From Balneolaceae bacterium (GTDB taxonomy: Bacteria; Bacteroidota; Rhodothermia; Balneolales; Balneolaceae), in contig CP030887.1 of the NCBI GenBank assembly GCA_006969905.1, positions 3,398,730-3,462,729 of the forward strand: 64,000 nt of DNA, written 5' to 3'. The notes beneath the pieces are model-generated. The model made no database searches. It was not told where the DNA came from and saw only the letters and a list, made by a program, of their open reading frames with translations. Shown in pieces: positions 12,750 through 32,414 of this stretch. Numbering within the stretch: the stretch's first letter is position 1; each line of letters opens with the position of its first letter. Both the position numbers and the translations under genes were made by a program.

Positions 12750-12774
12750 CTACCCCGCAAAATTTGCGGGGTAG
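12750..12774 (-). terminator. Strong hairpin just after nosZ
   Basis: CTACCCCGCAAA and TTTGCGGGGTAG form a 12-bp inverted repeat around one base, 11 bases after the nosZ stop. On the minus strand it is followed by a T-rich stretch (GTTTCTTTTAAC). It is either a partial terminator or an mRNA 3'-end protector, leaving nosZ more abundant than the maturation genes that follow in the same operon. Confidence 0.75.
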
Positions 12775-25930: not shown

Positions 25931-25951
25931 GATTTAGTAATCAAATTATTG

Positions 25952-25982
25952 AGCCCAATTGAATTTCAGTTGGGCTTTTTTA
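25952..25982 (+). terminator. Terminator of odhA
   Basis: AGCCCAATTG pairs with CAGTTGGGCT (one G-U pair) across a 5-base loop and is followed by six T. It closes the odhA unit. Confidence 0.88.
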
Positions 25983-26029
25983 TTTGACAGAATTTTTTTC
26001 AAAAAAGTACCATCGAAAAAAAATTCTCA

Positions 26030-26054
26030 CTAATTTAGAATTAGTCTAAATTAG
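26030..26054. promoter_or_regulatory. Fur-superfamily-like palindrome
   Basis: CTAATTTAGA and TCTAAATTAG are perfect inverted repeats with a 5-base ATTAG centre, 22 bases upstream of the TTG start of the exported CbiX-like gene. The core TTTAGAA-TTAG-TCTAAA closely resembles Irr iron-control elements (TTTAGAA-N3-TTCTAAA) and other Fur/PerR boxes. Binding here would overlap the promoter and repress. Confidence 0.6.
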
Positions 26055-26076: not shown

Positions 26077-27021
26077 TTGAAAAACAAAATATCTGTCTTC
26101 ACACTTTTAGCAATATTCATCTCTTTTTCTACATCTTCTTTCTCCCAGGAGGTAACCCCCAATTATCCCGACATAGGTATTATGATTCTTGCTCACGGTA
26201 GTATGGATAAGGAATGGAACTCTGCCATCCAGGAAGTTACATCTCCCATCAAAGAGGATTATCATGTTGAAATAGCATGGGGAATGGCAAATGCCTTAAA
26301 CATGCAGCCTGCAATTACTAAACTGGAAGAAAAAGGAGTTAGCACAATTGTAGCTGTACAACTGTTTATTTCTTCATACAGCCCGATTATACGCCAGAAT
26401 GAGTACCTGCTTGGATTCAGGGATTCTCTTGCCGACGCCCCAATGCCAATGATGATTCATGATATGGAGAATCATCGTATGACTATGAAGATGCCTGAAA
26501 ATCTTCAACCATTAGAAATTAATGCTGATGTAATTCTTACCAAACCTCTTGATGATCATCCGTTTGTTGCAGAAATATTACTTGATCGTATTGAAGAACT
26601 GAGTATAGCCCCGTATAAAGAATCAGTGCTGCTCGTTGCACATGGCCCAAATAGTGAAAGTGATAATGATATGTGGATTCGTACCAGCAATAACCTTGCT
26701 GAACAAATTAAGGAACTCCAAAAAAAGAACGGAGAGGCCTTTAAAAATATCATTTCGCTCACAGTAAGGGATGATGCGGATGAGGAAACACATGAAAAAG
26801 CGCGGCAAGAATTCCGCAAAAAAGTAATCGAAGCTGATAATGAAGGTGATGCCATTGTTATTCCCTTACTACTTTCACAAGGTGGTGTAGAGAAAAAATA
26901 TCTCACAAGGCTGGAAGGATTGAATTACAAATGGAATGGAGAAACCCTTTTGCCTCACTATAATATCTCAAGGTTCATTCAGGTTTCGATCGAGGATGCA
27001 TTGAACAAAGAATTAAATTAA
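26077..27021 (+). CDS. Exported CbiX/sirohydrochlorin-chelatase-like protein
   Basis: TTG start; the 314-residue protein begins with a Sec signal (KNKISVFTLLAIFISFSTSSFSQ). Two CbiX-like halves follow. The first has IGIMILAHGSMDKEWNSAI with the chelatase His, and VQLFISSYSPIIRQNEYLLG. The second has VLLVAHGPNSESDNDMWI and IPLLLSQGGVEKKYLTRL. CbiX-family proteins insert Co2+, Ni2+ or Fe2+ into sirohydrochlorin in the cytoplasm, so periplasmic location suggests a changed role such as metal or tetrapyrrole binding. The Fur-like palindrome upstream supports iron or heme control. The family call is good; the activity is unproven. Confidence 0.8.
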   Translation: MKNKISVFTLLAIFISFSTSSFSQEVTPNYPDIGIMILAHGSMDKEWNSAIQEVTSPIKEDYHVEIAWGMANALNMQPAITKLEEKGVSTIVAVQLFISSYSPIIRQNEYLLGFRDSLADAPMPMMIHDMENHRMTMKMPENLQPLEINADVILTKPLDDHPFVAEILLDRIEELSIAPYKESVLLVAHGPNSESDNDMWIRTSNNLAEQIKELQKKNGEAFKNIISLTVRDDADEETHEKARQEFRKKVIEADNEGDAIVIPLLLSQGGVEKKYLTRLEGLNYKWNGETLLPHYNISRFIQVSIEDALNKELN

Positions 27022-27207: not shown

Positions 27208-28515
27208 TCAATTAAACCTGTAGGTTATTCCCGCCATGATCATACTGGTAGTCATATCATAAGATACTTTGCTGCCCGGAATAGCTCCGTAAGGTGGATA
27301 CTGGCCAATAAACATAGGATTGAGTAGCTGACCTTCAGTACTACCACTACTGGTTCCGTAATGATAAACTACATCTAAATTGATTAGTTCGCTTAACTCA
27401 AATGTAAAACCAAACTGGAAAGCATTTTTAATAATGGCTGTAGCAGGTACATTAAAGAAAGCAACATCCTCATCTATTGGATTCCCACTGAAGGTATACC
27501 CTATTCGAACCGGAAGCTTTTCAACGCCTTTGTATTGAATTCCGGCAGAAAGTACAGAAATACTATTCCAGCCAAACCCGGCAACAGCAGCAGCAGGAGT
27601 CCAGCCTGTTTCTGAAAAACCCTCAGTATTTTCATAATCTATATACCGGTAATCTACCGCCAGATCCATATTCTCTAATGAGTAGCCTATGCCTGCAGAA
27701 TAGATGGCAGGATAATCCATTTGAAATTCAGATACACTTGTACTGCCGTCCAGGTATGTATTGTCAAATTCAAATTCATTGAATTTCTGAGGAGTTTTAT
27801 AGGATATACCCAGCTTAATCCCACTACCTGAATCAAAGAAAAGCCCGATTTGTGCCCCATAACCAACAGAAGATGCCTTATCTGTAGAAGGATAGCCTGC
27901 AGAATTTGGATTAGCCGTAGGGTTAGGCATTAATTCCAGTGTTGCATAATTAAGCGTGGGCTCTACCCCAACAGACAACTTTTCGTTAATTGCATAAGCA
28001 TAAGTAAAGCCAACTTGCAACAGGATATAATCAGATTCGATTCTTCCAAAACCGCCCATGCTTTGGGGCATATTTATCGGGTTTGTATTGCTTTGAGGAA
28101 AAGTTACCCCAAAACCACTTATGCCGAAGGCAGAAGCTCCAAAAGTATGGGCGCTTCCTTCTTTCCCCCAAACCACGGCCAGTGCCGGCATGGGCGATAC
28201 ACCCCTGTCATCTTTAGTGATACCACTGATAAAGTTGCCTGTAGGCTGCCCCATATTATCGAATTCGGGAACAGTTGATTTTAGCTCAGGAGATGAAAAG
28301 AAAAGCCCGATATCGAATTTTAAAATGGTTCCATCAAACGTGGAGATAGAAGCCGGGTTCCACTGCAAAGCACCTGAGATATCCAGGGGTTGAGCGGTAG
28401 CTGCCCCACCCATCGACATATTCACTGCCCCTGTACCTTGCATAACGTGGCCTACTTGTGCAAAAGTAAAAGTTGAACACAATATGAAAGCTATAATGAA
28501 ACTGAATATTTTCAT
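27208..28515 (-). CDS. FadL/OmpP1-family outer-membrane transporter
   Basis: A 435-residue protein with a signal ending FTFAQ. The family's N-terminal plug signature follows directly: VGHVMQGTGAVNMSMGGAATAQPLDISGALQWNPASIS. A 14-strand barrel with Tyr/Gly-rich strands ends in MIMAGITYRFN, a BAM signal with terminal aromatic. FadL proteins let hydrophobic compounds cross the outer membrane. It stands downstream of the sulfur operon but behind a strong terminator, so it probably has its own promoter. Confidence 0.88.
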   Translation of the reverse strand: MKIFSFIIAFILCSTFTFAQVGHVMQGTGAVNMSMGGAATAQPLDISGALQWNPASISTFDGTILKFDIGLFFSSPELKSTVPEFDNMGQPTGNFISGITKDDRGVSPMPALAVVWGKEGSAHTFGASAFGISGFGVTFPQSNTNPINMPQSMGGFGRIESDYILLQVGFTYAYAINEKLSVGVEPTLNYATLELMPNPTANPNSAGYPSTDKASSVGYGAQIGLFFDSGSGIKLGISYKTPQKFNEFEFDNTYLDGSTSVSEFQMDYPAIYSAGIGYSLENMDLAVDYRYIDYENTEGFSETGWTPAAAVAGFGWNSISVLSAGIQYKGVEKLPVRIGYTFSGNPIDEDVAFFNVPATAIIKNAFQFGFTFELSELINLDVVYHYGTSSGSTEGQLLNPMFIGQYPPYGAIPGSKVSYDMTTSMIMAGITYRFN

Positions 28516-28658: not shown

Positions 28659-29180
28659 TTAAGTAAAGATGATCTCTGCACCGGCTGATTTCTCGTAAAA
28701 CTCCCCGACAGAAATGATACCATCCAATTGATCGCAGAAGTCTTTTTCTTCTAAATGGAACATATCTACAGTGGCTTTACATGCATAGATTTCAGCACCT
28801 GTATCATGGATCATTTCAACAAACTCACGAACCGGAGGAATATCCAGTTTTTCCATTTCGTCCTTCATCTTTTTAGTAGCAAAAGCAGACATGCCCGGTA
28901 TTGCACCCAGTATAGTAGGCATATGCATGGCCGGATTACCTACGGTTGCTACTTTCAGGTTATCCATACGCTTGTTTATCACAGCTTCTAAACCAAAAAA
29001 TGTAAAGAACAATGTAGCTTCCATTCCTTCCATTCTGGCTCCGTTTGCCATAATTAAACCAGGGTAAACCCCTTCCAATGATCCTTTGGATATGATTATT
29101 GAAACTTTCTCAATAGGTTTCGGAGTTGTTTCAGCATCCGTCAGACCTGTTGTTTCTGTATTAGCATCTGTTGCAATCAT
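28659..29180 (-). CDS. DsrE2-like sulfur carrier protein
   Basis: A 173-residue DsrE/F/H-like protein with a short Thr-rich N-terminal extension. Core strands are IEKVSIIISKGSLEGVYPGLIMANGARMEGMEATLFFTFFG (in part). The conserved cysteine region is IYACKATVDMF (Cys134), with a second Cys149. DsrE2 proteins, known from sulfur-oxidising bacteria, move persulfide sulfur from a membrane or rhodanese donor to DsrEFH or DsrC. Here it is 15 bases downstream of the DsrC/TusE-like gene and in one operon with sulfide:quinone oxidoreductase, matching that role. Confidence 0.85.
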   Translation of the reverse strand: MIATDANTETTGLTDAETTPKPIEKVSIIISKGSLEGVYPGLIMANGARMEGMEATLFFTFFGLEAVINKRMDNLKVATVGNPAMHMPTILGAIPGMSAFATKKMKDEMEKLDIPPVREFVEMIHDTGAEIYACKATVDMFHLEEKDFCDQLDGIISVGEFYEKSAGAEIIFT

Positions 29181-29195
29181 AATTATCTCCTCGGA

Positions 29196-29513
29196 TTAAA
29201 TACATCCTTTTGGTTTGGGAAGGCCGGCAATTTTAGCTGCCTTTTTAGCCGGACCTTTTGGGAATAAGGCATAGAGTTCTTTGGTAGAAACTCCGCTTTC
29301 TTTGGTAAGCTTACGGATAGAGGGTGCGTCACCTTTTGCGTCAAATTCTTTGCGCATAAAATTGATTACAATCCAGTGGCGCTCATTAAGCTCTCCCACC
29401 CCTTCCATGTTGGCGAATTCCTGTGCAATATTTTCGTTCCAATCGTCACGATTTGCAAGGTTCCCATCTTTGTCAAGTTCAATGGTTCTGTTGTCTAATA
29501 CTGCTGTTTCCAT
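29196..29513 (-). CDS. DsrC/TusE-family sulfur carrier, single terminal Cys
   Basis: The 105-residue protein has the DsrC fold signatures: LDKDGNLANRDDWNENIAQEFA, LNERHWIVINFMRKEF, and a C-terminal arm LFPKGPAKKAAKIAGLPKPKGC. The penultimate Cys104 (CysA) is present. The second arm cysteine of true DsrC, eleven residues earlier, is Ala93. One-cysteine forms act as persulfide carriers (TusE or DsrC-like) rather than as trisulfide partners of sulfite reductase. It lies between sqr and dsrE2, so the substrate sulfur probably comes from sulfide oxidation. Confidence 0.9.
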   Translation of the reverse strand: METAVLDNRTIELDKDGNLANRDDWNENIAQEFANMEGVGELNERHWIVINFMRKEFDAKGDAPSIRKLTKESGVSTKELYALFPKGPAKKAAKIAGLPKPKGCI

Positions 29514-29555
29514 AACAATAGATTTTGTTTTCTTATTAAGTTCTTAGTAATTCAT

Positions 29556-30812
29556 TTACACTGTTTCAGCTTCTTCTTCGGGAATATATTTACCGGCCAT
29601 ACTCATGTGTGGCTCTAAAGGAAGATCCCTACCCTTAATTAACATATTCCAGTATAACCAGCGAAAGCCCATTTTCCCTAAATGATTCATTCGTGTTTCT
29701 TTTAAAAGTGCGAATGGCCCTATTCCCGGAAATGGAAATTTACCGGGCAAAGGCTCGGTTTCATAGTTAAAATCAATCAACAAACCTTTACCACCGCCTG
29801 ATTCGATAAAGCAATTGGCATGTCCGTCAAAGTTTGCTTCTAATGGCTTGCCTGCAATGGCAGACATCATGTTTTCAAACAAAATATCTGCCTGGAAATG
29901 AGCCACTGAGCCTGCTTTAGAGGATGGTAAATCAGTAGCATCGCCGATTACAAACACATTTTCCCAACCATTCGATTGTAGTGTATGTTTGTCAGTTGGG
30001 ATGAAGTTCAACTCATCACCCATTTCGCTTCGCTCAATTGCTTTAATACCCATATTGGTCGGTATAGTAACCAAAAGGTCGAATTCTACTTCCCGCTCAT
30101 CCCATGAAACAATCTTTTTTTCTTCATTTTCAACTCTTCCAATGTTGAACTCAGTAACAATGTTGATTCCTTTTTTTTCCATGAAATCACCCAATTCACG
30201 AGCAGCAATCGGTTTGGTAAAGGCGGCATCCAGCGGGGTTACAAGGGTTATATCAACTTTGTCCCGCATGTTTTTCTTCCGGAAGAAATCATCCGCAAGA
30301 AATAAAAACTCTAAGGGTGCCACAGGGCACTTTATTGGCATTTCAGCAATATTAAGTACCAGCTTTCCACCTTCCCATGTTTTTAAGAAGTCGGCCAGTG
30401 CCATAGCGCCTTCCAGGGTATAAAAATCGAAAATGCTTTTGTGCCACAATTCCTCTTTCATGCCTTCTATTTCTTCCGGGCATATTTCTGTACCTGTGGC
30501 TACAACCAGGAAGTCATAATCCAGTGCATCTGCATTTTGCAAATATACTTTGTTTACATCAGGTGCAATGCGATCAATTTCTGATATTATTACCTCAATG
30601 TTTTTGGGAAAAAATTGTCTTTTAGGCTTAATCACATCCTGCTTTCCATAAATACCGAAAGGAATAAAAAGAAAACCGGGCTGGTAGTAATGCGTTTCTT
30701 CTTTATCAACAATAGTGATACTCCAGTCTCCGGGCTTCAGGGCTTTACGAAGTTTGTTGGCCATTATGGTTCCGGCTGTTCCGGCTCCTAAAATCACAAT
30801 TCGCTTCATCAT
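29556..30812 (-). CDS. sqr: Sulfide:quinone oxidoreductase-type flavoprotein
   Basis: A 418-residue FAD protein: dinucleotide motif IVILGAGTAGTIMANKL at the start, HYYQPGFLFIPFG, the second motif VVATGTEICPEEIEGM, and FVIGDATDLPSSKAGSVAHFQ. Candidate redox cysteines are Cys111, Cys162 (PIKCPVAPLEF) and Cys334 (HANCFIES). The C-terminus has amphipathic aromatic helices (MGFRWLYWNMLIKGRDLPL) for membrane binding. SQR oxidises sulfide to polysulfide and reduces the quinone pool. It heads the sqr-DsrC-DsrE2 operon. SQR class cannot be fixed by eye. Confidence 0.88.
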   Translation of the reverse strand: MMKRIVILGAGTAGTIMANKLRKALKPGDWSITIVDKEETHYYQPGFLFIPFGIYGKQDVIKPKRQFFPKNIEVIISEIDRIAPDVNKVYLQNADALDYDFLVVATGTEICPEEIEGMKEELWHKSIFDFYTLEGAMALADFLKTWEGGKLVLNIAEMPIKCPVAPLEFLFLADDFFRKKNMRDKVDITLVTPLDAAFTKPIAARELGDFMEKKGINIVTEFNIGRVENEEKKIVSWDEREVEFDLLVTIPTNMGIKAIERSEMGDELNFIPTDKHTLQSNGWENVFVIGDATDLPSSKAGSVAHFQADILFENMMSAIAGKPLEANFDGHANCFIESGGGKGLLIDFNYETEPLPGKFPFPGIGPFALLKETRMNHLGKMGFRWLYWNMLIKGRDLPLEPHMSMAGKYIPEEEAETV

Positions 30813-31655: not shown

Positions 31656-32414
31656 ATGGAAAAATACACGGTAAGTCGACTGGCAAGGCTGGCAGGAATC
31701 TCAATCCGTACTCTTCATCATTATGATAAAATCGGATTGTTAAAACCTGCTAAGCGTGCAGAATCCAGATATAGGTATTACGGAAAAGAAGAACTGTACA
31801 GGTTACAGCAAATTCTCTTTTTCAAAGAGCTGAATTTTAGTTTATCCAAAATCCAGCAAATACTGGACGATCCGGATTTTGACCAGATTGAGGCGCTTGA
31901 ATACCAAAGAAAGCTGATTGAAAAACAGTCAGACCGATTGGGCAAACTCCTCACTACTATTGACAAAACTATCAAAGAATTAAAGGAGAACAAGACAATG
32001 TTATCCGATGAACAGCTTTATGAAGGGTTCTCAAAAGAACAAATAGAAGCCTGGAATAAAGAAATAGATGAGAAATATGATCCAAAAGTGGTGGCAGAAT
32101 CCCGTGATAATGTCAGCAAAATGACGAAACCGGAAATGGATGCTATCAAACAAGAACAGGAAAACCAGGCTAAAGAACTTGCTGAATTAATGGGTAAATA
32201 CACTATTGATTCAGAAGAAGTGCAAGCCATAATCAAACGCCACCACCAAACCAACGAGAAGTTTTATAAAACTTCTGCCGAGGTATACAAAGGCTTAGGC
32301 GACATGTATGTTTCAGATTCCCGGTTTGCTGAGTTTTATGATAAATACAAGCCCGGATTATCCGAATTTCTTCGGGATGCAATGCACCACTTTGCAGATC
32401 ATTATCTCGAATAA
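31656..32414 (+). CDS. MerR-family regulator with TipAS domain
   Basis: A 252-residue TipAL-like activator. The N-terminal MerR winged helix is VSRLARLAGISIRTLHHYDKIGLLKPAKR, followed by YRYYGKEELYRLQQILFFKELNFSLSKIQQIL and a coiled-coil dimer helix. The C-terminal TipAS ligand domain is recognised by LSDEQLYEGFSKEQIEAWNKEIDEKY at its start and FAEFYDKYKPGLSEFLRDAMHHF at its end. TipAS domains bind thiopeptide antibiotics and other small molecules. No target gene is adjacent, so it may regulate itself and distant genes. Confidence 0.93.
   Translation: MEKYTVSRLARLAGISIRTLHHYDKIGLLKPAKRAESRYRYYGKEELYRLQQILFFKELNFSLSKIQQILDDPDFDQIEALEYQRKLIEKQSDRLGKLLTTIDKTIKELKENKTMLSDEQLYEGFSKEQIEAWNKEIDEKYDPKVVAESRDNVSKMTKPEMDAIKQEQENQAKELAELMGKYTIDSEEVQAIIKRHHQTNEKFYKTSAEVYKGLGDMYVSDSRFAEFYDKYKPGLSEFLRDAMHHFADHYLE

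Follow-up and report, generated by a model that had tools for sequence, protein, structure and literature searches.

The 25-bp palindrome that precedes the gene of an exported CbiX-fold protein in this Balneolaceae bacterium is very probably a Fur operator of the Riemerella anatipestifer type, which would place that gene under iron-dependent repression together with a regulon of uptake genes. We read it as a Fur site because the same sequence precedes genes for the uptake of heme and iron and is almost identical to a verified Fur site of R. anatipestifer. These sequence comparisons strongly suggest that Fur binds at the palindrome, and we infer both the identity of the binding protein and the sign of its control.

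The window, by which we mean the whole 64,000-nucleotide stretch of DNA that was analysed, contains at positions 26030-26054 the sequence CTAATTTAGA-ATTAG-TCTAAATTAG, 22 bp upstream of a TTG start codon. It is a perfect inverted repeat with 10-bp arms and a 5-bp spacer, exactly as the original prediction had described it. No second copy was found in the window when up to three arm mismatches were allowed, and 100 shuffled sequences yielded none. Perfect 10-5-10 palindromes of any sequence occur three times in the window (at 12750, 26030, and 28584), whereas 60 windows simulated with its dinucleotide content contained none. The other two, at 12750 and 28584, are unrelated in sequence and are possibly terminator hairpins. 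The core had been proposed to read TTTAGAA...TCTAAA; a conserved core indeed exists, but instead of this asymmetric form it has the symmetric form ATTTAGA-N5-TCTAAAT and spans 19 bp (ATTTAGAATTAGTCTAAAT). Because the conserved core is TTTAGA-N5-TCTAAA, a scan of the window for TTTAGAA-N5-TTCTAAA was uninformative, returning nothing telling.

The features around the palindrome are collected in Table 1. With an intrinsic terminator behind the upstream gene, the chelatase-like gene appears to be a transcription unit of its own, as is also probable from the convergent orientation of the gene on its 3' side. A weak promoter-like element precedes the palindrome; shuffle scans give about four such matches, and the sequence TACCATC is found in the orthologue of genome G039 too. 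If this element were used, the Fur box might lie at approximately +10 to +34 of the transcript.

Table 1. Features of the window at and around the palindrome.
Feature	Position	Strand	Remarks
sucA/kgd-type upstream gene: 2-oxoglutarate dehydrogenase E1 fused with acyltransferase domain, 1217 aa	22277..25930	+	PF00676, PF00198, PF02779, PF16870
Intrinsic terminator of upstream gene: 12-pair stem, 3-base loop, T run	25951..25977	+	
Promoter-like element: TTGACA (25984-25989), 18 bp, TACCAT (26008-26013)	25984..26013	+	tentative, weak
Perfect 10-5-10 palindrome	26030..26054	.	outermost pair C/G; T/A in four orthologous promoters
Putative Fur box core ATTTAGAATTAGTCTAAAT, 19 bp	26033..26051	.	18/19 identical to R. 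anatipestifer Fur box
Exported two-half CbiX-fold protein, 314 aa, TTG start	26077..27021 (stop)	+	Pfam CbiX, signal-peptide-like start
FadL/Toluene_X-type outer membrane protein gene, convergent	27208..28515	-	outside proposed regulon

Several neighbouring genes deserve mention in their own right. The upstream gene encodes a fusion of a 2-oxoacid dehydrogenase acyltransferase domain and E1 in a single protein, an arrangement known from actinobacterial KGD/OdhA. On the minus strand, at 28659-30812, genes for DsrE-type, DsrC-type, and pyridine nucleotide-disulfide oxidoreductase proteins form a compact cluster that suggests sulfur transfer or sulfide oxidation, and at 31656-32414 lies the gene of a MerR-family regulator that carries a TipAS antibiotic-recognition domain.

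In the 3.49-Mb genome, the core pattern occurs in four exact and seven one-mismatch copies, compared with a total of three for the reversed pattern. At two mismatches the 19-mer was not above control (42 matches, 56 for the reversed pattern), and only sites with zero or one mismatch were therefore used. A genome-wide motif search at other iron genes had been proposed as a check, and the absence of the motif there as a refutation; the search instead found the box before many of them: a gene for a FecA-like TonB receptor, which has two tandem boxes 49 bp apart; hmuS (HemS/ChuS-type), whose 3' neighbours are hmuT, hmuU, and hmuV; the gene of the HmuR receptor, upstream of hmuY; genes for an FbpA-like binding protein and for an FbpC-like ATPase, whose ORF as listed starts at the box edge; and feoA-feoB, with the box approximately 240 bp away. 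Boxes also precede genes for an IscA-type protein, an ActA-type cytochrome, and an exported beta-carbonic anhydrase. The last of these has a one-mismatch box approximately 180 bp upstream (L073 at 7293, G000:C1:2913292) and may be under genuine iron control. The hmu genes make up a complete heme-uptake locus, hmuR-hmuY-hmuS-hmuT-hmuU-hmuV (G000:C1:1205000-1222000, L067), with boxes before hmuR and hmuS; its HmuS belongs to the HemS/ChuS type and differs from the CobN-like protein that bears this name in Bacteroides.

The box is widespread in the family. Exact cores number 127 in 75 of 89 genomes, compared with three control matches. When 43 of these exact sites were inspected, 35 were found to precede homologues of FbpA, FbpB, HmuS, HmuR, FecA, another TonB receptor, or CbiX, and three more to precede apparent sufB genes. 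Exact boxes upstream of apparent sufB occur in genus g19 (L114, L122, L125), where iron-sulfur assembly may share the same control.

The CbiX-fold protein has matches in 21 of 92 family genomes, and none of the other seven genomes in the window's genus has the gene, so it is accessory. In five genomes (G000, G039, G032, G031, and G035) it has its own box and lies 3' of sucA, which is its conserved neighbour there, and the box is within approximately 100 bp of the start codon. The palindrome is conserved across these five promoters as [CT]TAATTTAGA-N5-TCTAAATTA[AG], while the flanks differ and the spacers vary (ATTAG, AACAG, AATAG, TGCAG, and AACAG). Even where the outermost pair swaps between T/A and C/G, the symmetry is retained. 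Seven other genomes (G008, G009, G010, G011, G014, G015, and G021) have the gene order hmuR-hmuY-cbiX with one or two boxes before hmuR, the identity of HmuY having been confirmed for samples of these loci. The CbiX-fold gene is the last in a boxed TonB receptor-PepSY cluster in G017, and in G065 it has its own one-mismatch box. Similar associations reach beyond the family: an exact box lies approximately 50 bp upstream of a CbiX-fold gene in a Cyclobacteriaceae contig, exact boxes precede an hmuY-type gene and the CbiX-fold gene behind it in a Flavobacteriia contig, and in an Ignavibacteria contig hmuR-hmuY are upstream of the CbiX-fold gene.

Five orthologues (L062, L063, L065, L066, and L040) are unboxed. 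They resemble a paralogous clade, the two that were read through (L062 and L063) have no signal peptide, and the four whose neighbourhoods were drawn are away from heme genes; they are thus no argument against the heme link. Four of the five (L062, L063, L065, and L066) form a second CbiX-fold clade in genus g3, which perhaps represents a cytoplasmic paralogue; L063, L065, and L066 adjoin a gene for a GTPase-like protein of approximately 706 aa.

In R. anatipestifer (Flavobacteriales), the Fur box was derived as ATTTAGAATTATTCTAAAT, and purified Fur shifts promoters bearing it in EMSA, including that of hmuR (PMC5609570); at the rhuB box, Fe2+ is required for Fur binding (PMC10986502). The core of the window's box is identical to ATTTAGAATTATTCTAAAT at 18 of 19 bases, with one difference. 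The two boxes are alike in their 19-bp length, their arms ATTTAGA/TCTAAAT, and their position less than 100 bp from the start codon, and the R. anatipestifer box controls HmuR and other TonB iron receptors, as the box here probably does (PMC5609570; PMC10986502). In contrast to R. anatipestifer, the host here belongs to Balneolaceae, the symmetry reaches further (25 bp), and the putatively controlled gene encodes an exported CbiX-fold protein, a type of target that does not appear in that species' list of 11 putative sites. The iron or heme control that had been predicted originally is thus supported both by this match to a verified Fur box and by the boxes that precede heme, ferric, and ferrous uptake genes in the genome and the family.

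The canonical E. coli Fur box, GATAATGATAATCATTATC, is likewise a 19-bp dyad that is bound by a FUR-family dimer and stands before iron genes, but its sequence differs, agreeing at approximately 7 of 19 bases in a count made by eye. The rhizobial Irr iron control element, TTTAGAA-N3-TTCTAAA, has nearly the arms and spacing of the window's box, but Irr acts in alphaproteobacteria with a different logic, and it was not found here by the NCBIfam cut-off: the main FUR-family protein reaches 43 bits with the best Irr model, for which the cut-off is 170, and scores higher (84) with a Fur model, while a second FUR-family protein has no Irr match in NCBIfam. Irr is therefore not indicated as the regulator. 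Of the label "Fur/Irr-like" first attached to the palindrome, the Fur-type box stands, and the likeness to Irr is one of sequence only. The second FUR-family protein is short (126 aa); its gene, at L002 1483-1863 (G000:C1:1972208), and that of a small membrane protein are divergently oriented.

The Fur homologue of this genome (168 aa, G000:C1:2140670-2141173) possesses the HDH and Cys motifs and has Glu where PerR has its oxidisable Asp. A Fur homologue is present in 66 of 66 good family genomes; in three drafts that retain boxes (G084, G085, and G088) the fur gene is broken or was not found, which may be due to assembly faults. A check for autoregulation found no box within two mismatches at the fur gene in the own-genome match list. 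It is improbable, in our judgement, that the same box, with the same regulon and iron logic, is instead the operator of a DtxR/MntR-type repressor. Such a protein does exist here: it has 219 aa and carries metal-binding and FeoA domains, and its gene (G000:C1:442591-443247) lies at a distance of 9 kb from the boxed gene for the FecA-like receptor; regulators of this type are encoded in 64 of 66 good family genomes, in several relatives within a few kb of boxes. However, the TonB receptor gene that adjoins dtxR in the window's own genome is without a box within two mismatches, and two draft genomes, G036 (91% complete) and G079 (96%), retain boxes upstream of hmuR and of FbpA-like and ActA genes yet lack a close DtxR relative. 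Moreover, the odd symmetry of a 19-bp site with TTAGA half-sites suits Fur boxes better than DtxR boxes of the TTAGG type. Inspection of the Nramp promoters by eye revealed neither the box nor an evident alternative DtxR box, which does not settle the choice between Fur and DtxR. In R. anatipestifer, it is Fur that binds the box of the same sequence (PMC5609570).

Two other readings have to be weighed against a Fur operator. That a genuine operator serves a predominantly PerR-like or Zur-like role, sensing peroxide or zinc rather than iron, is very unlikely, since nearly all boxed genes belong to iron or heme uptake; the likeness of FUR-family operators to one another speaks for it, as do the 77 bits that the FUR-family protein L001 reaches with PerR models, although this is less than the cut-off, and the boxed gene for the exported carbonic anhydrase, a zinc enzyme. 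For PerR in particular, the Glu of L001 at the position of the oxidisable Asp is a further point against. We give even less credence to the palindrome acting as an RNA hairpin in a short transcript leader and not as protein-binding DNA. The same 19-mer, fixed in sequence besides being symmetric, precedes many unrelated iron genes at varied distances, whereas a hairpin would tolerate compensatory changes along its whole stem, even though a perfect inverted repeat just 3' of a promoter-like element could form one in the leader.

The downstream gene had been predicted to encode an exported chelatase-like product, and indeed its 314-aa protein has a signal-peptide-like N terminus and matches Pfam CbiX (PF01903) with 41.3 bits (cut-off 22). 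Its AlphaFold model is confident (mean pLDDT 92.2) and displays the two-half chelatase fold of the CbiX family. In a structure search, SirB was the best match (Z 20.6, rmsd 2.8 Å, 233 aligned residues), followed by ferrochelatases (Z ~18), Porphyromonas gingivalis FetB (17.1), and periplasmic CbiK (17.0). By sequence, phmmer against the PDB gave only a weak CbiX match, and a profile search was needed.

In CfbA, H9 and H75 are metal ligands. Profile alignment pairs H9 with H40 of the product and H75 with P103, a position occupied by Pro in 31 of 38 relatives and by His in none; in the C-half, the position assigned manually as the equivalent of CfbA H75 holds Ile, Val, Arg, or Pro. The usual single-half His pair is missing, and one His per half stays (H40 and H189). 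Among the 38 aligned relatives, H189 is invariant and H40 is found in all 35 that cover its position; W47, R231, and D233 are invariant and E272 nearly so. Assignment to a tetrapyrrole metal-chelatase family thus holds for the fold, but the second metal-binding His of CfbA has given way to Pro, and chelatase activity is therefore only putative. The product shares with the sirohydrochlorin chelatases SirB/CbiX/CfbA the two-half chelatase fold and the first His of the metal pair; unlike them, it is exported, has Pro for the second His, and is linked to heme uptake rather than to siroheme or cobalamin genes.

A chelatase fold outside the cytoplasm is also found in P. gingivalis FetB/IhtB (PDB 9b86) and in the periplasmic CbiK of Desulfovibrio vulgaris (2xvx, 2xvz). 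Structural alignment to these proteins gives identities of approximately 16-17% (16% for FetB), neither was matched in sequence by phmmer or profile search, and the gene neighbours of the CbiX-fold gene are different. FetB/IhtB has been tied to heme iron and to porphyrin metal exchange, and removal or exchange of heme metal has been proposed for it (PMC13402209, PMC6460266); it is the nearest functional parallel to the exported CbiX-fold protein. Because hmuR and hmuY are in the neighbourhood, heme is the most likely substrate or ligand, and we propose that the protein handles heme or another tetrapyrrole in iron acquisition. A bolder and only tentative idea is that the exported family, which occurs in Balneolaceae, Flavobacteriia, Ignavibacteria, Aquificales, anammox bacteria, and others, comprises heme-iron extraction or metal-exchange enzymes (reverse chelatases) with an altered H40/H189 site, working between capture by HmuY/HmuR and iron import.

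We envisage the following switch. With ample iron, Fur in its Fe2+-loaded form, most probably the homologue of 168 aa, would bind ATTTAGAATTAGTCTAAAT and, sitting between promoter and start codon, block transcription of the CbiX-fold gene. When iron becomes scarce, Fur would be released and the exported protein made together with HmuR, HmuY, HmuS-T-U-V, and the FbpA/FbpC-like, FeoAB, and FecA-like uptake systems. Most likely, heme or another tetrapyrrole would then pass from HmuR/HmuY to the CbiX-fold protein outside the cytoplasm, which would remove or exchange the metal or hold the ring.

In conclusion, a switch of an already known type would connect an exported protein that has been little studied with the use of heme iron. 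Our analysis supplies a probable Fur regulon for Balneolaceae, where a literature search showed none, and suggests that this family, too, uses the Riemerella-type Fur box. Furthermore, an exported protein with the chelatase fold becomes part of the putative heme-iron response, which bears on how such bacteria may extract iron from heme.
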